Positions 25,494-34,443 of a stretch of 59,454 nucleotides of DNA are shown here, piece after piece. Every line of letters starts with the position of its first letter. Position 1 is the first letter of the stretch. Made by a program: the position numbers and the translations under genes. Location: contig JADGQK010000008.1 of the NCBI GenBank assembly GCA_017881915.1, positions 1-59,454 on the forward strand, read 5' to 3'. Under the pieces are notes generated by a model. It saw only the letters and a program-made list of their open reading frames with translations. It did not search any database and was not told where the DNA came from. This stretch comes from Chloroflexota bacterium (GTDB lineage: Bacteria; Chloroflexota; Limnocylindria; Limnocylindrales; CSP1-4).

Positions 25494-25593
25494 CCACGTC
25501 CGCCTCTCAGCCCACGCGATCCGCTGCGGCGCGCGCCCATCTCATCGCGGGCCCCGGCGCACACGGGCTCCGCACGAAGGAACCGCCGGAATC

Positions 25594-26655
25594 ATGTTCG
25601 ACCGCCTCCTCGGCCTTTTCTCACGGGATATCGGAATCGATCTCGGGACAGCCAACACGCTGGTCCACGTTCGAAACCGGGGAATCGTGATCAGCGAGCC
25701 GAGCGTCGTGGCGATCGAGGCGAAGACGAAGAAGGTCCTGGCCATCGGGGCCGAGGCGAAGCGGATGGTCGGCCGCACGCCGGCATCGATTATCGCGGTG
25801 CGGCCATTGCGCGATGGCGTGATCAGCGACTTCGACGTGACCGAGCAGATGATCAAGTACTTCGTCAACCGGGTCCACGACCGCGTTGGCCTGATCCCGC
25901 GACCGCGGATGCTGCTCGGCGTCCCTTCCGGCGTCACCGAAGTCGAGAAGCGCGCGGTTCGCGACGCGGCCCTCAATGCAGGTGCGCGCTGGGCCCGCCT
26001 GATTGAGGAGCCGATGGCCGCCGCGATCGGAGCCGGCCTGCCGGTCAGCGAGCCATCGGGCAGCCTGATCGTCGACATCGGCGGCGGCACGACTGAGGTG
26101 GCCGTGATCAGTCTCGGCGGCATCGTGATCGCCCGAAGCATCCGGATCGGCGGCGACGAGATGGACCAGGACATCGTCACCTTCGCCCGGCGCGAATACA
26201 ACCTGTTCCTCGGCGAGCGGACGGCCGAGGACATCAAGATCGCCATCGCGTCGGCCTACCCCGGCGAGTGGGACGCGCAGCGGGTGGTCCTGCGCGGCCG
26301 CGACCTGCTGACGGGTCTGCCTCGCAGCGTCGAGGTTGGCGCCGATCAGATCCGCGAGGCGATTGAACCGTCGGTCCAGCAGATCGTCGACACGATCAAG
26401 GACACGATCGAGGAGACACCACCTGAGCTGGTCGCCGACATCATGGACCAGGGTATCGTCCTGGCCGGTGGCGGGGCGCTGCTGGCTGGCCTCGACCAGC
26501 GGATCGCGGAGGCCACCCAGATGCCCGTCCACATCGCGGACGACCCGCTCACCTGCGTGGCCCGAGGGACCGGCGTGGTCCTCGAGGAGCTGGCCACGAA
26601 TCCGGCGATGCAGCGGGTCCTGGTTGCAGACACGTACGCTCGCACCCCGCGCTGA
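25594..26655 (+). CDS. mreB: Rod-shape-determining protein MreB
   Basis: This 353-residue bacterial actin starts MFDRLLGLFSRDIGIDLGTA. It has the phosphate-1 loop GIDLGTANTLV, the second loop LIVDIGGGTTEVAVISLGG (near 160), LIEEPMAAAIGAGLPV, and the adenosine motif GIVLAGGGALLAGLD (near 290). Membrane-associated MreB filaments guide lateral peptidoglycan synthesis and give rod shape. The short N-terminal amphipathic segment (MFDRLLGLFS) fits membrane binding. mreC follows 24 bases later. Length and motifs are complete. Confidence 0.97.
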   Translation: MFDRLLGLFSRDIGIDLGTANTLVHVRNRGIVISEPSVVAIEAKTKKVLAIGAEAKRMVGRTPASIIAVRPLRDGVISDFDVTEQMIKYFVNRVHDRVGLIPRPRMLLGVPSGVTEVEKRAVRDAALNAGARWARLIEEPMAAAIGAGLPVSEPSGSLIVDIGGGTTEVAVISLGGIVIARSIRIGGDEMDQDIVTFARREYNLFLGERTAEDIKIAIASAYPGEWDAQRVVLRGRDLLTGLPRSVEVGADQIREAIEPSVQQIVDTIKDTIEETPPELVADIMDQGIVLAGGGALLAGLDQRIAEATQMPVHIADDPLTCVARGTGVVLEELATNPAMQRVLVADTYARTPR

Positions 26656-26679
26656 CGGACACGGCCGGGGTCGCCTGCG

Positions 26680-27636
26680 ATGACTGCTCTGCTCAACGAC
26701 CGTCGGACGCGTCGGCGCTCGATCACCTACGCGGTGCTCCTGGCGACCTGCCTGGGGCTCATGGTGTTCTCCTCCAGCCCGCCCGTCCAGGAGCTCCAGA
26801 AGGGCGTTGCCTTCGCCTTCAAGCCCGTCCAGACGGCGGTCGATTCGGTCGCCCGCGGGGTGGGCTCACTGGTCGCCACGATCGGCGAGATCGACACCCT
26901 CCACCGGACCAATGACCAGCTCACCTCCGAGAACGCGACCCTCAGCGCCGAGAATGCGCGGGCCAAGGAGCTCGAGCGCGAGAATCAGATCCTCACCGGT
27001 CTCCTCCAGGTCCAGTCCGGCCTCGGCTTCCAGTCGGTTGGAGCGACCGTGATCGGGCGCGAGACCTCCGAATTCCGGCGGGTCGTGACGATCGATGTCG
27101 GCACCGACCGGGGGATCATCGTCGGCGACGTCGTGGTTGCCGACGGGGGCGCGCTGGCCGGCCGGGTGACGGCAGTCGCGGGTGGCTCGGCCACGGTCCT
27201 GCTGATCAACGACACGAGCTCGACCGTGATCGGCCAGCTTGGCTCGAACCAGGCGACCGGCTCGGTGATCGGCCAGCTCGGCGGCGTACTCGTCATGGAG
27301 GACGTTGATTCGACCGAGCGGGTCCAGATCAACGACCAGGTTGTCACCGCCGGGATCGACCTCGGCAACGGCGTCCGGTCGCCGTTCCCGAAGGGCCTCC
27401 TGATCGGCACCGTCGTCGACGTGCAGCGCGATGCAAATGCCGTGGTCCAGACCGCGTTCATCCAGCCGGCCGTCAACCTGGACAAGCTCGAATATGTCCT
27501 CGTGATCACGAACTACAAGGGCGGCCTGCCACCCGTCGATCAGCAGGCCGTGCCGTGCCCCAGCGGTGGCGCCACCCTGCCGGCGGGGGAGCAGCCCTGC
27601 GTGACTGCAAGTCCGTCACCCGCGCCCGGCCACTGA
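26680..27636 (+). CDS. mreC: Rod-shape-determining protein MreC
   Basis: This 318-residue protein has an N-terminal membrane helix (SITYAVLLATCLGLMVFSSS), a coiled coil at about 70-110 (DTLHRTNDQLTSENATLSAE), and the extracytoplasmic beta-domain. That domain contains ATVIGRETSEFRRVVTIDVG, VVVADGGALAGRVTAVAGG and GLLIGTVVDVQRD. MreC links MreB filaments to the transpeptidases outside the membrane. It ends in a Pro/Ser-rich tail. No mreD, PBP2 or rodA follows; the next gene is rmlA, which has its own -10 box 5 bases after this stop. Confidence 0.95.
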   Translation: MTALLNDRRTRRRSITYAVLLATCLGLMVFSSSPPVQELQKGVAFAFKPVQTAVDSVARGVGSLVATIGEIDTLHRTNDQLTSENATLSAENARAKELERENQILTGLLQVQSGLGFQSVGATVIGRETSEFRRVVTIDVGTDRGIIVGDVVVADGGALAGRVTAVAGGSATVLLINDTSSTVIGQLGSNQATGSVIGQLGGVLVMEDVDSTERVQINDQVVTAGIDLGNGVRSPFPKGLLIGTVVDVQRDANAVVQTAFIQPAVNLDKLEYVLVITNYKGGLPPVDQQAVPCPSGGATLPAGEQPCVTASPSPAPGH

Positions 27637-27653: not shown

Positions 27654-28415
27654 ATGAAGGGGATCGTTCTCGCCGGTGGGACGGCGACCCGCCTGTTCCC
27701 GCTCACGATCGTCACGAACAAGCACCTCCTGCCGATCTACGACCGGCCGATGATCTACTACCCGATCGCGACCCTGGCCGGGATGGGGATTCGCGAGGTC
27801 ATGGTGATCGTCGGAGGCAAGAGCGTCGGCGACGTCGTGGAGCTGCTTGCCGACGGTTCCCACTTCGGGTTGGACCTGACCTATCGCTATCAGCACGGTG
27901 CCCTGGGCATCGCCCACGCGATTGGCCTGGCCCGGGACTTTGTCGGCGACGAGGCCTTCTGCTGCGTCCTCGGCGACAACATCCTGCTGGGCGACCCGCT
28001 GGCGGCCGTGGCCGGCGAATTCGAGGCAGGATCGTACGGCGCCGGCACGCTTCTCTATCGGGTGCCGGACCCCGAGCGCTTCGGAGTCGCCGAGCTTGGT
28101 CCGAACGGCGAGGTGGTCGGCTTCGAGGAGAAGCCGGACGTGCCCAAGAGCGACCTGATCCCGATTGGGGTCTACTTCCTGCGCGCCGATGCCTTCGACG
28201 TGATCGACCGGCTGGCCCCGTCCGGGCGGGGTGAGTTCGAGATCACCGACGTGCTCAACCATTACATCCCGAACGGCGGGCTCTACACCCGCGTCTACGG
28301 TGGCCATTGGGCCGATGCCGGGACCGTGCCATCGCTGCTGCGGGCCGCGGCGATCGCGGCCGACGACGACGCGGCTGGTCGGCTCAGCCCGGCCCCCCAG
28401 CGGCCCGGCCGATGA
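27654..28415 (+). CDS. rmlA: Glucose-1-phosphate thymidylyltransferase (RmlA-like)
   Basis: This 253-residue nucleotidyltransferase starts MKGIVLAGGTATRLFPLTIV. It has the activated loop GGTATRLFPLT, TNKHLLPIYDRPMIYYPIATL, CCVLGDNILLGDPL (metal-binding Asp), VGFEEKPDVPKSDL and GGHWADAGTVPSLLRAA. It makes dTDP-glucose from glucose-1-phosphate and dTTP, the first step to dTDP-L-rhamnose. The usual GSGTR loop is GTATR here, a mild variation. The rmlB, rmlD and rmlC genes follow in order. It is a little shorter than the usual ~290 residues and lacks the full C-terminal allosteric region. Confidence 0.9.
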   Translation: MKGIVLAGGTATRLFPLTIVTNKHLLPIYDRPMIYYPIATLAGMGIREVMVIVGGKSVGDVVELLADGSHFGLDLTYRYQHGALGIAHAIGLARDFVGDEAFCCVLGDNILLGDPLAAVAGEFEAGSYGAGTLLYRVPDPERFGVAELGPNGEVVGFEEKPDVPKSDLIPIGVYFLRADAFDVIDRLAPSGRGEFEITDVLNHYIPNGGLYTRVYGGHWADAGTVPSLLRAAAIAADDDAAGRLSPAPQRPGR

Positions 28416-28434
28416 TTGCGCCGAGACCGTGTCG

Positions 28435-29586
28435 ATGACCCACGAGCAATTTGGGCCTGGTTCACACCTCCTCGTCACCGGCGGCGCCGGGTTCATCGGA
28501 TCCTGCTTCGTCCGCGAAATCCTGGGCCGCGACGACGGGACCCGGATTACCGTCCTCGACACCCTCACCTATGCGGGCAATGAGGAGAACCTGAGGCTGG
28601 TCCTGGACGATCCCGGCCAGGCGGCCCGCTTCCGCTTCGTCCGCGGCGACATCGCCGACCCGGCCATCGTTCGCCCGCTCGTGATCGAGGCCGACGCAGT
28701 CCTGAATTTCGCGGCTGAATCTCACGTCGACCGCTCGATCCTCGATCCGGCGGCATTCCTGCGGACCGGAGTGATCGGCGTTCACGTCCTCCTCGAGGCC
28801 TGCCGCGCGGAGGCGGCCCGCCTGGCCGCGGGCGAGCGCCGGACGAGTGGCGGTGATCCTCGCCCGGCGCCGCGTTACCTCCAGGTCAGCACCGACGAGG
28901 TCTACGGCTCGGTCGAGTCCGGCCGCTCGGTCGAGACGGACGCGCTCGCGCCGCGCTCCCCGTACGCCGCGGCCAAGGCGGCCGGTGAGCTGCTGGTCCG
29001 GAGCTACGTCGTGACCTACGGCCTCGATGCCCTGGTCACCCGCGGCTCGAACACCTATGGCCCATACCACCATCCGGAGAAGCTCATCCCGCTGTTCATC
29101 ACCAATGCCCTCGACGACCGTCCGCTGCCGCTTTACGGCGATGGCCTGCAGCAACGCGACTGGCTGTTCGTGACCGACCACGCCGGGGCGATCGAACACA
29201 TCCTGGGTCGCGGCGTGAGCGGCGAGACATACAACATTCCAGGTTCGGCCGAGATGACCAACCGGGAGGTCGTGCGACTGCTCCTGGAGGCCCTGGGCAA
29301 GCCCTGGTCGCTCGTCCGGACGGTCGAGGATCGTCCCGGCCACGACCGGCGTTACGCCCTGGACGGCTCGAAGTTAGCTGCCCTCGGCTGGCGCAACCGG
29401 GTCGCTTTCGCCGACGGCCTGCGCCTGACCGTCGACTGGTTCCGGGCCAATGAAGCCTGGTGGCGCGCGCTCAAGGCCGGCGACTGGGACGCCTATTACG
29501 ATCGCCAGTACGGCCGTCGATTGGCCGGCTCCGAACCCGCGGGACTCGCGCCCACCGGGCCCGGGCCGGGCCGGCCGGCGGGCTGA
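28435..29586 (+). CDS. rmlB: dTDP-glucose 4,6-dehydratase (RmlB)
   Basis: This 383-residue extended SDR enzyme has the NAD loop LLVTGGAGFIGSCFVREIL at the N-terminus, LDTLTYAGNEENLRLV and FAAESHVDRSILDPAAFLRT. The catalytic triad region has STDEVYGS and the YAAAK motif in RSPYAAAKAAGELLV, followed by GSNTYGPYHHPEKLIPLFI. It converts dTDP-glucose to dTDP-4-keto-6-deoxyglucose. Starts at ATG 28435 or GTG 28429 are both possible, 19 or 13 bases after rmlA. The C-terminal ~20 residues are Gly/Pro-rich and extra to the family. Confidence 0.93.
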   Translation: MTHEQFGPGSHLLVTGGAGFIGSCFVREILGRDDGTRITVLDTLTYAGNEENLRLVLDDPGQAARFRFVRGDIADPAIVRPLVIEADAVLNFAAESHVDRSILDPAAFLRTGVIGVHVLLEACRAEAARLAAGERRTSGGDPRPAPRYLQVSTDEVYGSVESGRSVETDALAPRSPYAAAKAAGELLVRSYVVTYGLDALVTRGSNTYGPYHHPEKLIPLFITNALDDRPLPLYGDGLQQRDWLFVTDHAGAIEHILGRGVSGETYNIPGSAEMTNREVVRLLLEALGKPWSLVRTVEDRPGHDRRYALDGSKLAALGWRNRVAFADGLRLTVDWFRANEAWWRALKAGDWDAYYDRQYGRRLAGSEPAGLAPTGPGPGRPAG

Positions 29587-29587
29587 C

Positions 29588-30553
29588 GTGCGGATTGCGG
29601 TCACCGGCGCGAGTGGCCGTCTGGGCCGGGCCATCCTCGCTGCCCTGGCTGACGCTCCATTCACCGGGATCAGCGGCCCGCTGGCCTGGAGCCGGCCGGA
29701 CTATGACCTCGATGACGTCGGCGCTGCAGCGCGCCTGATCGCCCGCGACCAGCCCGAGGTGATCGTCCACGCCGCGGCCTGGACCGACGTCGATGGCTGT
29801 GCCCGGCAGCCCGAAATCGCTCAGCGGCGCAATGCCGAGGCCGTCGTCCGGCTGTCCGAGGCGGCGGCGGGCTCGGGAACCGATCTCATTCTCATCTCGA
29901 CCAACGAGGTGTTCGACGGTCGTCGGACCGACGGCCTGGGCTATCGCCTGGATGATCGCCCGAACCCGATCAATACCTACGGTTCGAGCAAGCTCGCCGG
30001 CGAGGCGGCCGCCGCGACGGCCTACGCCTGGACGCCCGATGGTGCGTCTGCTCATGGCTCGTCGCCGGCCAGCGGTCCAGCTCTTGCGATCGTTCGGACC
30101 GCCTGGCTGTATGGCCCGCCTGGCAATGACTTCCCCGAGAAGATCGCCCGGGCCGGCGAACATGCCCGCGCCGCCGGCGAGTCGCTCCGGGTGGTCGGCG
30201 ACGAGACCGGCTCGCCCACCTTCACTGCCGACCTGGCCGACGCGATCGTGGAGCTGATTGGCTGCGGTGAACGGTTCGCGGGGATCCACCACGTCGTCAA
30301 CGGTGGAGCCGCCACTCGGGCCGCCTGGGCCCGGGCGGCCCTGGCCGGCCTGGCGATCGACGTCCCGATCATGGAGGTCCCCGGCTCGACTTGGACGCGC
30401 GCGTCAACGCCGCCGGCGTGGGCTGTTCTCGAGCCAACCCGGATGCCTTCCGGCGAGCCTCTCCGGCCGTGGACCGCGGCCCTCGCCGACTATCTCCCGG
30501 CGCTCCGCCGGCAGCTAGCCGTCCGACCTGGCGTCGGCGCCGCAGTCCGGTGA
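29588..30553 (+). CDS. rmlD: dTDP-4-dehydrorhamnose reductase (RmlD)
   Basis: This 321-residue SDR protein starts VRIAVTGASGRLGRAILAAL. It has VIVHAAAWTDVDGCARQPEI, LILISTNEVFDGRRTDGLGY, the catalytic YxxxK in NTYGSSKLAGEAAA, and VRTAWLYGPPGNDFPEKIAR. It reduces dTDP-4-keto-L-rhamnose to dTDP-L-rhamnose with NADPH. The GTG start lies one base after the rmlB stop. An Ala/Ser-rich insertion of about 20 residues (PDGASAHGSSPASGP) follows the active site and is unusual for the family. Confidence 0.9.
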   Translation: MRIAVTGASGRLGRAILAALADAPFTGISGPLAWSRPDYDLDDVGAAARLIARDQPEVIVHAAAWTDVDGCARQPEIAQRRNAEAVVRLSEAAAGSGTDLILISTNEVFDGRRTDGLGYRLDDRPNPINTYGSSKLAGEAAAATAYAWTPDGASAHGSSPASGPALAIVRTAWLYGPPGNDFPEKIARAGEHARAAGESLRVVGDETGSPTFTADLADAIVELIGCGERFAGIHHVVNGGAATRAAWARAALAGLAIDVPIMEVPGSTWTRASTPPAWAVLEPTRMPSGEPLRPWTAALADYLPALRRQLAVRPGVGAAVR

Positions 30554-30560
30554 TCGCCCG

Positions 30561-31142
30561 ATGACCGCCCCGTCGCGCCCTGCCGCTTCGGTCCTGCCCG
30601 GCGTCAGGTGGGGTGCGATCGATCGGCACGGCGACCTGCGCGGGTCATTCCGCGAGCTCTGGCGCGCTTCGTCCAACCTGGATCTCAGCCCGCGCTGGAC
30701 CGGCTCGCCCGACGCCCACTTCGTCCAGGCGAACCTGTCGACCTCGGCCCTCGGCGTCCTGCGCGGCCTGCACTACCATCGCCGCCAGCTGGACCATTGG
30801 ATCGTCGCATCGGGCCGCGCGCTCGTGGCCCTGGTCGACGTCCGGCCGGCAGCGGCCGGGTCCGGCCCGGCCGTGGTCGAGACTCGCGAGCTGGCCGCCG
30901 AGGGAACGGTCACGATCCCCAGGGGGGTTGCCCACGGCTTCCTCGCGCTCGAGGCGCTCGAGCTGATCTACCTCGTGACGAACGAATACGACGGGTCCGA
31001 CGAGCTCGGCTTCGCCTGGGATGATCCGGCCGTGGGTGTCCCCTGGCCCGCTTGCCCAACGCCCGACGGCCGCCCGATCCTGTCCGAGCGTGACCAGGCC
31101 AATCCAACGCTGGCCGGCCTGCTCGAACGGCTTCGCCGATGA
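30561..31142 (+). CDS. rmlC: dTDP-4-dehydrorhamnose 3,5-epimerase (RmlC-like)
   Basis: This 193-residue cupin-fold protein has RWGAIDRHGDLRGSFRELWR, HFVQANLSTSALGVLRGLHY followed by HRRQ, VALVDVRP, TIPRGVAHGFLALE and LIYLVTNEYDGSDELGFAWD. The His of RGLHYH is the conserved catalytic base of RmlC. It epimerises C3 and C5 of dTDP-4-keto-6-deoxyglucose. The gene order A-B-D-C completes dTDP-L-rhamnose synthesis. It starts 7 bases after rmlD. Confidence 0.92.
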   Translation: MTAPSRPAASVLPGVRWGAIDRHGDLRGSFRELWRASSNLDLSPRWTGSPDAHFVQANLSTSALGVLRGLHYHRRQLDHWIVASGRALVALVDVRPAAAGSGPAVVETRELAAEGTVTIPRGVAHGFLALEALELIYLVTNEYDGSDELGFAWDDPAVGVPWPACPTPDGRPILSERDQANPTLAGLLERLRR

Positions 31143-31392
31143 GCCGGTGCACCGGCGCCCCGCAATTCGCTACGGCGGCGATCGAGGGCGCACCACCGGC
31201 GACCACCATCAACCCCACCGCAGTCCGCCCGACCGGGCTGCTCCGACCGGCACTTCGGACGATGGGCCCATTCGGGGCCGGGACCATGTCGGCATTGAGT
31301 CGGGCATCCCCATCCGGGAGTCTGGGGATGCCCTCCACCTCCGGTTCGCTGGGGCAACCACGAGCCGGTCCGCGGAAGCTCGGAGACTCCCC

Positions 31393-32328
31393 TTGCGCAA
31401 GCTTCTCAGTGCTCTCTCCCTCGCCTTCCTGATCGGCGTCGGGCTGGCCGTTCCGGCAGCCTCGGCTTCGAGCCTGTCGAGCGCCAAGGTCGTGATCATC
31501 GTCGGCCCGGTCGACACGTCAACGTCCTCGTACATCGCCGACGCGAACGTGGCCGCCGCCGCGGCTCGCCAGTACAGCTCGAACGTCGTCACGATCTACA
31601 CGCCGCACGCGACCTGGGCCACCGTGAGCGCCGACCTGCAGGGCGCCTCGATCGTCGTCTACATGGGCCACGGGAACGGTTACACGAGTCCCTATCACAA
31701 GGTCTTCAACATCAATGCGATCCCGTCGACCGTGGATGGCCTGGGCCTGAATCCGTCGGGCAACAAGACGAATAACAGCACGACCGAGTATCACGGCGAG
31801 GCGGAGCTGGCCAAGTCGATCAAGCTCGCCCCGAACGCCGTCGTGATCCTCGCCCACCTGTGCTATTCGGCCGGGAACTCCGAACCCCAGAATCCGGCCC
31901 CAACGTTCTTCGAGGCGCGGCTGCGAGTCGACAACATGGGCGCCGGCTGGCTGAGGACCGGAGCCCGGGCCGTCATCTCCGAGGTCTACTCGTCGGGGAT
32001 GGCCGGCTGGTACATCAGCCAGCTGTTCACGACCCATCAGACGATCAACGACCTGTGGCAGGGCGCTCCGACCTTCAACAACGACGTCCAGGTGTCGGCC
32101 TCCATCCGGAACGGCTGGGCAACCGTCCAGCTCGACCTCGACGCGACCATCAGCCCGACGAAGAACGAGCACTTCGGGCGGGCGATCAGTGGTGACATGA
32201 CGCTACTCACTGACGCTGCGGTCCGAAGGCCAGTCCCATCGCCATACGGTCAGGTCACCCTGGCCCAGCCGGGGGCCCCGAGGGTCGCTGGGATGGGGGT
32301 CCGGCCGCGCAGCCTGAGCCTGCGCTGA
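31393..32328 (+). CDS. Secreted caspase-like (clan CD fold) protein, undescribed
   Basis: This 311-residue protein starts at a TTG (31393) with GGAG about 9 bases upstream and a clear Sec signal: LRKLLSALSLAFLIGVGLAV ending PAASA. The mature part has SSAKVVIIVGPVDTSTSSY, then ASIVVYMGHGNGYTSPY (candidate catalytic His near 92) and NAVVILAHLCYSAGNSEPQN (candidate catalytic Cys near 160). A His-Gly motif followed about 65 residues later by a strand ending in Cys is the layout of clan CD peptidases such as caspases and gingipains. The motif match is mine and unverified. It sits inside the polysaccharide locus, after rmlC. A frame extending further upstream lacks signal features. Confidence 0.65.
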   Translation: MRKLLSALSLAFLIGVGLAVPAASASSLSSAKVVIIVGPVDTSTSSYIADANVAAAAARQYSSNVVTIYTPHATWATVSADLQGASIVVYMGHGNGYTSPYHKVFNINAIPSTVDGLGLNPSGNKTNNSTTEYHGEAELAKSIKLAPNAVVILAHLCYSAGNSEPQNPAPTFFEARLRVDNMGAGWLRTGARAVISEVYSSGMAGWYISQLFTTHQTINDLWQGAPTFNNDVQVSASIRNGWATVQLDLDATISPTKNEHFGRAISGDMTLLTDAAVRRPVPSPYGQVTLAQPGAPRVAGMGVRPRSLSLR

Positions 32329-32362: not shown

Positions 32363-33124
32363 ATGTCGTCCGATCCCCGACCCGGAACCTGGATCATCCT
32401 GCCGACGTACGACGAGGCCGAGAACCTGCCCGGCATCGCTGCGGCGATCCTAGCCGAGCTGCCCGGCGCGACGTTGCTCGTCGTGGACGACGGGTCGCCC
32501 GACGGGACGGGTCAACTGGCCGATCAGCTGGCAGTCGAGGACGAGCGGGTCCGGGTCCGCCATCGCCCGGCGAAGCAAGGTCTCGGCCGAGCGTACCTCG
32601 AGGGCTTCCGGGTTGCCATCGATGGCGGCGCTGACATCCTCGTCCAGATGGATGCGGACTGGTCGCACGACCCGGCCGACCTGCCCTCGCTGATCGACCC
32701 GATCGCCGACGGTGCAGTCGATCTGGTCATCGGCTCGCGCTACGTTCCAGGTGGCGGGGTGATCGACTGGGGACTTGCCCGGCGGGTGATCTCGCGGGGC
32801 GGCAGCCTGTTCGCACGGCTCGTGCTGGGCCTCGCCCCGCACGACCTGACCGGTGGGTTCAAGGCCTGGCGCGCCGAGACGCTCGCGGGGATCCCGTTCG
32901 ACGGCATCCACGCGGGGGGCTACGTCTTCCAGATCGAAATGACCTATCGGGCGAGCCGGCTCAGGGCGCGGGTCCGGGAGGTGCCGATCACGTTCCGCGA
33001 CCGGCGGGTAGGCCATTCGAAGATGTCGCGGCGGATCATCGGCGAAGCCCTGATCGTCGTCTTGCAGCTCCGCTGGGACGAGCTCCGCGGACGAGGTCCG
33101 CGCCCGATGCGCCCCGAGGCGTGA
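32363..33124 (+). CDS. Polyprenol-phosphate sugar synthase (GT2, Ppm1/DPM1-like)
   Basis: This 253-residue protein starts MSSDPRPGTWIILPTYDEAE. It has LLVVDDGSPDGTGQLADQL, the metal-binding motif QMDADWSHDPADL, IGSRYVPGGGVIDWG, LTGGFKAWRAETL and ITFRDRRVGHSKMS. This matches soluble polyprenol-monophosphomannose synthases, which load mannose from GDP-mannose (or glucose) onto a polyprenyl phosphate for use outside the membrane. There is no C-terminal membrane domain. It overlaps the next glycosyltransferase gene by GTGA. Confidence 0.9.
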   Translation: MSSDPRPGTWIILPTYDEAENLPGIAAAILAELPGATLLVVDDGSPDGTGQLADQLAVEDERVRVRHRPAKQGLGRAYLEGFRVAIDGGADILVQMDADWSHDPADLPSLIDPIADGAVDLVIGSRYVPGGGVIDWGLARRVISRGGSLFARLVLGLAPHDLTGGFKAWRAETLAGIPFDGIHAGGYVFQIEMTYRASRLRARVREVPITFRDRRVGHSKMSRRIIGEALIVVLQLRWDELRGRGPRPMRPEA

Positions 33125-34443
33125 CCCTCAACCGACCTCGCGGCGTCAGCCCCGACCCGCTCGGCCTGCGTGTCGTCATGGACACTCGGCCGCTGGCGGA
33201 CCCAGCCCGCGGCCCGACCACCGCGATCTACCTTGGCGAATTGCTGGCCGCCTATGACGCTGAGCCGGTCGATGGCGAATCATTCACCTTCCTGGTTGGC
33301 CTCCGCAGGCCTGATCCAACCGAGGCCTTCGCCAGCCTCGACGTGGCCGCGCGCCGGCGGATGCCGCCCAGCTACCTGCTCCGCTCGGGCGCACTGTCCG
33401 TCGACCCCTTCCTGCTCCGGGGCGCGACAATCGGGGCGTCCTGGTGGGCCGAGCAGGGCGGCGCTGCCGGGGCCGTGTTCCACACCGCCGCCAATGCGAT
33501 CCCGATCGGTTCGCAGCTGCCTGTGGTGGTCACCCTGCTCGATCTGGCTCCATGGGAAATGCCGAGCGTCTACCAGCGCAGTCCCGCCGCTGCCTTCGGC
33601 CAGCGCCTGCGCGGTCGGATTCTGCGCGACGCGGCGTCGGTCATCGTGGGCACCAACGCGACGGCGCGGGCCGTCCATAACCTCCTCCGAATTCGCCCCG
33701 AGCGACTCGTCGTCGTGCCGCTGGCGGCCCGCGCTGCATTCCGCCCGGCGGCGCCCGACCGGGCGCCCGGGTCCTCATCGAAGCCGGCCGGCCCAGCCCA
33801 TGATCCGCGCAGCGACCGGGCACGGCTCGGCCTCCCGGAGCGCTACCTCGTGTACTCCGGTCGGTACGATGCCCGCCAGGACCTTGGCTCGCTGGTCGGG
33901 GCGCTCAGTCGCCTGGCGGCCGCCGGTCGCCCTGCCGGGCTCGCCGACCCGATCGCCTGGCCGCCGCGAATCCTGCTGATCGGTGCCTCGCCCGCTGATC
34001 GAGCCGCGCTGGCCCGGACGACGGCCCGCGAGGGGGTCGGCGAGCTCCTCGCCTACGCGCCCACGCTGGCCGTTGAGCGAGTGGCCGGGCTCGTCGCCGG
34101 GGCCCGCGCGGCAATCCTGCCATCGATCAGCGAGGCGGCCGGCTTACCGGCGATCGAGGCGCTGGCGGCCGGCACGCCGGTGATCGCCAGCGCAGTCGGC
34201 GCGCTACCCGAGATCGTGGGCGGGGCCGGCATCCTCGTCGAGCCGCGCGACTCGGATCGTCTCGCCACGGCGATTGCAACTGCCTGGACTGACGAGGACC
34301 TGTGGGTTCGACTGCGGGCCGACGCCCTGACGAGGAGCGGACCGGACCGGACGACCTGGTCCGACGTGGCCCGGGCCACCCGGGTCGTGTATACCGACGT
34401 CGGCGCGCGCCGCTCCCCCGAGGATGAGGTCACCGGCATCTGA
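33121..34443 (+). CDS. Glycosyltransferase family 4
   Basis: This 440-residue GT-B enzyme has an N-terminal half beginning LGLRVVMDTRPLADPARGPT, a middle SVIVGTNATARAVHNLL, and the donor-binding half with YLVYSGRYDARQDLGSLVGA. The retaining-GT signature reads AAILPSISEAAGLPAIEALA, then GTPVIASAVGALPEIVGGAG. It would transfer a sugar from a nucleotide donor to a glycan or lipid acceptor in the cytoplasm. The GTG start overlaps the preceding stop. A Pro/Ala-rich insertion sits between the two halves (near residues 215-235). Confidence 0.85.
   Translation: MTLNRPRGVSPDPLGLRVVMDTRPLADPARGPTTAIYLGELLAAYDAEPVDGESFTFLVGLRRPDPTEAFASLDVAARRRMPPSYLLRSGALSVDPFLLRGATIGASWWAEQGGAAGAVFHTAANAIPIGSQLPVVVTLLDLAPWEMPSVYQRSPAAAFGQRLRGRILRDAASVIVGTNATARAVHNLLRIRPERLVVVPLAARAAFRPAAPDRAPGSSSKPAGPAHDPRSDRARLGLPERYLVYSGRYDARQDLGSLVGALSRLAAAGRPAGLADPIAWPPRILLIGASPADRAALARTTAREGVGELLAYAPTLAVERVAGLVAGARAAILPSISEAAGLPAIEALAAGTPVIASAVGALPEIVGGAGILVEPRDSDRLATAIATAWTDEDLWVRLRADALTRSGPDRTTWSDVARATRVVYTDVGARRSPEDEVTGI

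Follow-up and report, generated by a model that had tools for sequence, protein, structure and literature searches.

Known clan CD peptidases and surface proteases

Clan CD peptidases share a parallel sheet core in which the catalytic His lies on a loop past strand 3 and the catalytic Cys follows strand 4 (PMC4357240). Its families include the secreted C25 enzymes (gingipains RgpB and Kgp; PorU), the secreted bacterial C11 enzymes (clostripain, iotapain) and the intracellular CHAT/Craspase and separase (C50) enzymes. PorU of P. gingivalis has been proposed as a sortase-like protein of the type IX secretion system, and its orthologues possess a conserved Arg 32 residues past the Cys that is absent from gingipains (PMC4560394). 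In Clostridioides difficile, the S-layer precursor is cut by the cysteine protease Cwp84, which attaches to the wall by its CWB2 repeats; the slpA locus lies next to a locus for cell-surface polymer synthesis (PMC5842191).

The gene described here lies within a window of 59,454 nucleotides, the whole stretch of Chloroflexota DNA that was analysed. Its product is probably an active clan CD cysteine endopeptidase that has a core distantly related to C25, is exported through Sec and acts on wall or surface proteins. It represents a family of secreted C25-like proteins that is syntenic and spans the lineage, falls outside Pfam model coverage, and ties a caspase-fold enzyme both to the locus for cell elongation and to a glycoside hydrolase of wall type. 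To our knowledge, no cell-wall function has been described for the caspase fold outside of the type IX system. With this family in hand, surface maturation in poorly known Chloroflexota becomes directly testable.

The closest working analogue is Cwp84, a surface cysteine protease with which the window protein would share its mode of action, and whose slpA locus adjoins polymer genes. The two enzymes are nevertheless unrelated since Cwp84 has a papain fold (C1A), and CWB2 repeats are found in only some relatives of the window protein and not in the window protein itself.

The gene and its product

The features of the gene and the encoded protein are as follows.

31393–32328, + strand: gene for a clan CD (C25-like) protein of 311 aa; position of the TTG start kept in relatives
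31382–31385, + strand: Shine-Dalgarno GGAG, 7 nt 5' of the TTG; CGGAGA conserved in L087, L003 and L002
31393–31467, + strand: putative Sec signal peptide, residues 1–25, cleavage between PAASA and S, read by eye from the sequence
31486–32220, + strand: predicted catalytic domain, clan CD (C25-like), from invariant Lys32; from alignment, model, and structure and profile comparison
31669–31671, + strand: putative catalytic His93, GHG motif, end of strand 3; 48/48 and 18/18 homologues, co-aligns with the C25 GH motif
31861–31863, + strand: putative catalytic Cys157, end of strand 4; 48/48 and 17/18 homologues, co-aligns with the C25 and C14 Cys strand
31924–31926, + strand: invariant Arg178, in a helix, 21 residues past Cys157; 48/48 and 18/18 homologues
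32221–32325, + strand: C-terminal tail, low-confidence/disordered (pLDDT 50–74); a module of approximately 100–650 aa occupies this place in other genera

The open reading frame at 31393–32328 is a real gene. It begins with TTG (31393–31395) and ends with TGA (32326–32328); three genus orthologues keep a TTG at this codon, preceded by an identical CGGAGA, and a fourth relative has GTG instead. Comparison with four relatives gave dN/dS values of 0.2–0.5 (NG86), indicating purifying selection. An Rfam search upstream of the gene identified no riboswitch at gathering score. The source genome (2.9 Mb, 166 contigs) contains a single copy.

The first-pass annotation had proposed a Sec signal and, judged by eye, residues 1–25 fit this description, with RK in the putative n-region, a hydrophobic core and an AXA box. 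Pro21 of this region is conserved in 43 of 48 homologues. As the catalytic domain starts approximately six residues past the signal, there is no room for an N-terminal prodomain, and the protein is unlikely to be activated in the gingipain manner, by removal of one.

Predicted fold

A search of the PDB by sequence profile returned chance matches only, making a comparison of folds necessary. AlphaFold2, supplied with an alignment of 48 sequences, produced a high-confidence model (pLDDT = 90, pTM = 0.86). According to DSSP and in mature numbering, strand 3 (61–65) is followed by His67 and strand 4 (123–128) is followed by Cys131. A distant homologue with 22–31% identity to the main family was also modeled and presented the same order of strand-His and strand-Cys. 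When the window model was searched against the PDB with Foldseek, the leading matches were SAVED-CHAT (E = 3.8e-5), Craspase and the C11 peptidase iotapain, followed by separases, legumain and caspase-1 interspersed with flavodoxins. The model of the distant homologue matched Craspase, SAVED-CHAT, many caspases and a separase. Template TM-scores were modest (approximately 0.4), and the matches are thus informative at the level of the clan and not of the family. Nothing was found in a viral structure library at E ≤ 0.001. The topology of the model and the Foldseek matches are in agreement, and on the strength of this prediction the earlier assignment of a clan CD fold is judged to be correct.

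Relationship to known clan CD families

No Pfam model reached its cut-off for the window protein and NCBIfam gave no match. The Pfam C25 model (PF01364) scored 17 bits, below the gathering threshold of 23, and its match spans only profile positions 192–330 of 374, corresponding to the catalytic half. Sub-threshold signals among the 48 aligned homologues were to C25 in 22 and weakly to CHAT in seven, with no C25 match better than an E-value of 0.001.

Profiles were then compared in hhalign against real Chloroflexota C25, CHAT, C11 and C14 domains, and against eight unrelated families from the same loci as controls. C25 was matched with a probability of 90 (E = 1.7e-6), with the GHG motif aligned to the GH of C25 and the Cys residues to each other. 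The probabilities for CHAT, C11 and C14 were 0.6–10% (CHAT approximately 3%, C11 at most 5%), and the controls did not exceed 0.7%. Thus, while CHAT/Craspase and separase are the closest solved folds, they are intracellular enzymes and CHAT is a poor match by profile; similarly, C11 resembles the window protein in structure and in being secreted, yet not in profile. C25 is the best of the four profile matches and is also secreted, but the window protein aligns to its catalytic half only and has no N-terminal prodomain. From these comparisons, the window protein belongs to an undescribed and unnamed C25-like family of clan CD, a divergent relative of C25 that comprises the catalytic half only. 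Four family searches of Limnocylindria genomes, the class of the window, identified no C25, CHAT, C11 or C14 proper; in the genomes sampled for these four, no clan CD type other than the C25-like family was found.

Active site

The layout of His and Cys that was noted in the first pass is borne out. Of the checks suggested there, those on structure, on conservation of the His/Cys pair and on co-occurrence all support a clan CD fold with this dyad. His93 lies within YMGHGNG and Cys157 within LAHLCYSAGNSE, with both motifs confirmed in the window protein, and the dyad is identical in all 48 aligned homologues. Also invariant in this alignment are Lys32, Gly38, the glycines of the GHG motif around His93, Tyr158, Gly161 and Arg178. 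In a deeper set that includes other Chloroflexota, His and Arg are present in 18 of 18 sequences and Cys in 17 of 18. The sole exception is a family f4 paralogue (L088:709-1536, G136:C12) in which YAQAHYAPG substitutes His for the Cys while GHG is kept. This paralogue is likely inactive, and part of the peptidase family may therefore be non-catalytic.

Distribution

Homologues were identified at 23 loci of the genome collection and in 36 of 61 related genomes. Within the taxonomic family of the window they occur in 34 of 37 genomes, the window included; they are absent from all 19 of the small (0.8–1.2 Mb) genomes of a sister family and present in two of five other members of the class. A profile search of 400 genomes from the phylum added more of family f4, likewise within the window's class, together with five distant cases from other parts of the phylum. 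The peptidase family is found almost only in one uncultured Chloroflexota group. Plasmid and phage collections yielded no homologue and, on present evidence, the gene is not mobile.

The copy number is usually one to three per genome without large expansion, and three other members of the genus gave two matches each. A second set of copies sits away from the mreBC site that is described below. In two genus members, the second copy adjoins a MarR-type regulator (L094:5047-6933, L096:3241-4761).

Genomic neighbourhood

The neighbours of the gene in the window are as follows.

25591–27636, + strand: mreB and mreC, starts approximate; constant upstream neighbours in 30 loci
27654–31142, + strand: rmlA, rmlB, rmlD and rmlC, starts approximate; between mreC and the peptidase gene in 17/30 loci
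32363–33124, + strand: polyprenol-phosphate sugar synthase; conserved downstream neighbour
33121–34443, + strand: family-4-type glycosyltransferase; conserved downstream neighbour

Gene order was tallied over 30 loci at the ancestral site whose upstream sequence is long enough, with near-duplicates counted once. The peptidase gene directly follows mreB-mreC in 13 loci and mreB-mreC-rmlABDC in 17, a few of the latter being on contigs that show only part of the upstream run. The first-pass annotation had correctly placed the gene between rmlC and the polyprenol-phosphate sugar synthase, and had taken the setting to be a polysaccharide locus. This is accurate in part: the rml genes are present at the site in 17 loci and the sugar synthase is found downstream in 18, but the association that never varies (30/30) is with mreBC, and 13 loci have no rml genes at the site. 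With a gap of 250 bp to the end of rmlC, the window gene is not tightly packed behind it.

In 17 loci, a gene for a secreted GH18 protein is located between the peptidase gene and the sugar synthase, and in two family f4 genomes, whole-genome searches also located one downstream, in the same orientation and no more than a few kb away. The GH18 domain is matched by Pfam, has a DGxNxDFE motif and resembles the solved structures of the sporulation glycosylase YdhD and of chitinases. At L014:10429-14130 and equivalents, the secreted GH18 hydrolase is extended by FlgD-Ig, CWB2 or DTR-type modules. The window genus has no GH18 gene at the site and only a distant GH18 (33% identity) elsewhere.

C-terminal extensions

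The peptidase of most genera ends in a C-terminal extension of approximately 100–650 residues made up of CWB2 repeats, FlgD-Ig/CHU_C domains, or a DTR-motif repeat with no Pfam match. The neighbouring GH18 protein bears the same type of extension as the peptidase. The tails of peptidases and GH18 proteins from the same locus were more alike than in all 20,000 shuffles, a comparison that does not control for shared ancestry. As proof of a specific partnership, the matching modules are weakened by this kinship and by the habit of genome G020, where CWB2 is also carried by several other proteins. Since closely related genomes share both tails and CWB2 is genome-wide in G020, the modules indicate a common surface address and not a proven partnership. 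G020 has 17 CWB2 repeat matches over several contigs, and most of its relatives have none. Another observation concerns L101:6823-8820 and L101:8865-12389, a peptidase and a GH18 protein whose extensions have a DTR and ITGNLTVTG repeat in common; the repeat of the peptidase had no Pfam match at an E-value of 0.01.

The peptidases of the window genus have no C-terminal extension, and the genus has no CWB2. The window clade, whose four sequences have no extension (support 100/100), is placed by the gene tree among relatives that do; three changes of label are needed overall, a pattern that suits a derived loss. Three distant homologues from other Chloroflexota (L084, L085 and L086) end in VMIPLILR, VYLPLTLNR and VYLPTITR, respectively, which looks like a shared C-terminal signal.

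Proposed role and alternatives

The peptidase would work outside of the membrane on the growing wall. There, Cys157 activated by His93 would attack a peptide bond of proteins located at the surface or associated with the wall, and the GH18 hydrolase or further surface proteins with extensions may be among these substrates. While the wall is assembled, such cleavage would mature, activate or remove its targets. The peptidase of most genera is probably held at the surface by its CWB2, FlgD-Ig or other repeat module. In the window genus, having neither extension nor GH18 neighbour, it would instead act as a free secreted, or loosely held, domain. A role in maturation or processing is our best guess for this enzyme.

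Somewhat unlikely by comparison is a clan CD enzyme that remodels the wall itself along with MreBC-driven growth, be it by cutting stem peptides beside GH18 or by transferring proteins onto a rhamnose- or polyprenol-derived glycan. Taken alone, a peptidoglycan endopeptidase that cuts cross-linked stem peptides while GH18 cuts the glycan strand, together a two-enzyme module for opening the wall during MreBC-driven growth, is unlikely. The constant mreBC linkage and the GH18 neighbour with like C-terminal modules in 17 loci are consistent with such a module, as are the resemblance of the GH18 domain to YdhD and its DGxNxDFE motif. However, this domain resembles chitinases too, the window genus, among others, has no GH18 partner at the site, and we know of no clan CD enzyme that acts on peptidoglycan.

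The first-pass annotation had raised a sortase-like role for glycan-linked proteins alongside maturation. In a PorU-like reaction, an acyl-enzyme formed at the Cys would move secreted proteins to an amine of a wall glycan derived from the rml and polyprenol-sugar genes. This reading draws on the inclusion of PorU in the nearest family, C25, on the glycan genes in the neighbourhood and, suggestively only, on the invariant Arg of the peptidase family, which lies at +21 from the Cys here versus +32 in PorU. A comparison of the C-termini of the peptidases and their GH18 partners revealed no shared cleavable signal, and the homologues bring their own C-terminal modules. In addition, classical C60 sortases are encoded in the window genome and in 18 others of the 37 searched, and 13 of the 30 loci have no rml genes at the site. 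The sortase-like proposal is thus unsupported; given the C60 sortases and no evident short C-terminal signal, it is held as a rival of rather low probability.

A nutritional or defensive protease directed at external proteins, with a location owed to history only, is improbable. Most of the secreted clan CD enzymes studied to date are digestive or virulence proteases, and a free domain without extension in the window genus would suit this lifestyle. Against it, one site beside mreBC is conserved across many genera and the one to three copies per genome do not amount to a large expansion. Finally, a clan CD fold that serves for binding or as a scaffold without catalysis finds some backing in the L088 paralogue, which has no Cys at the catalytic position. 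For the window protein, this reading is very improbable given the invariance of both His and Cys, and of the surrounding motifs, in 48 of 48 homologues.
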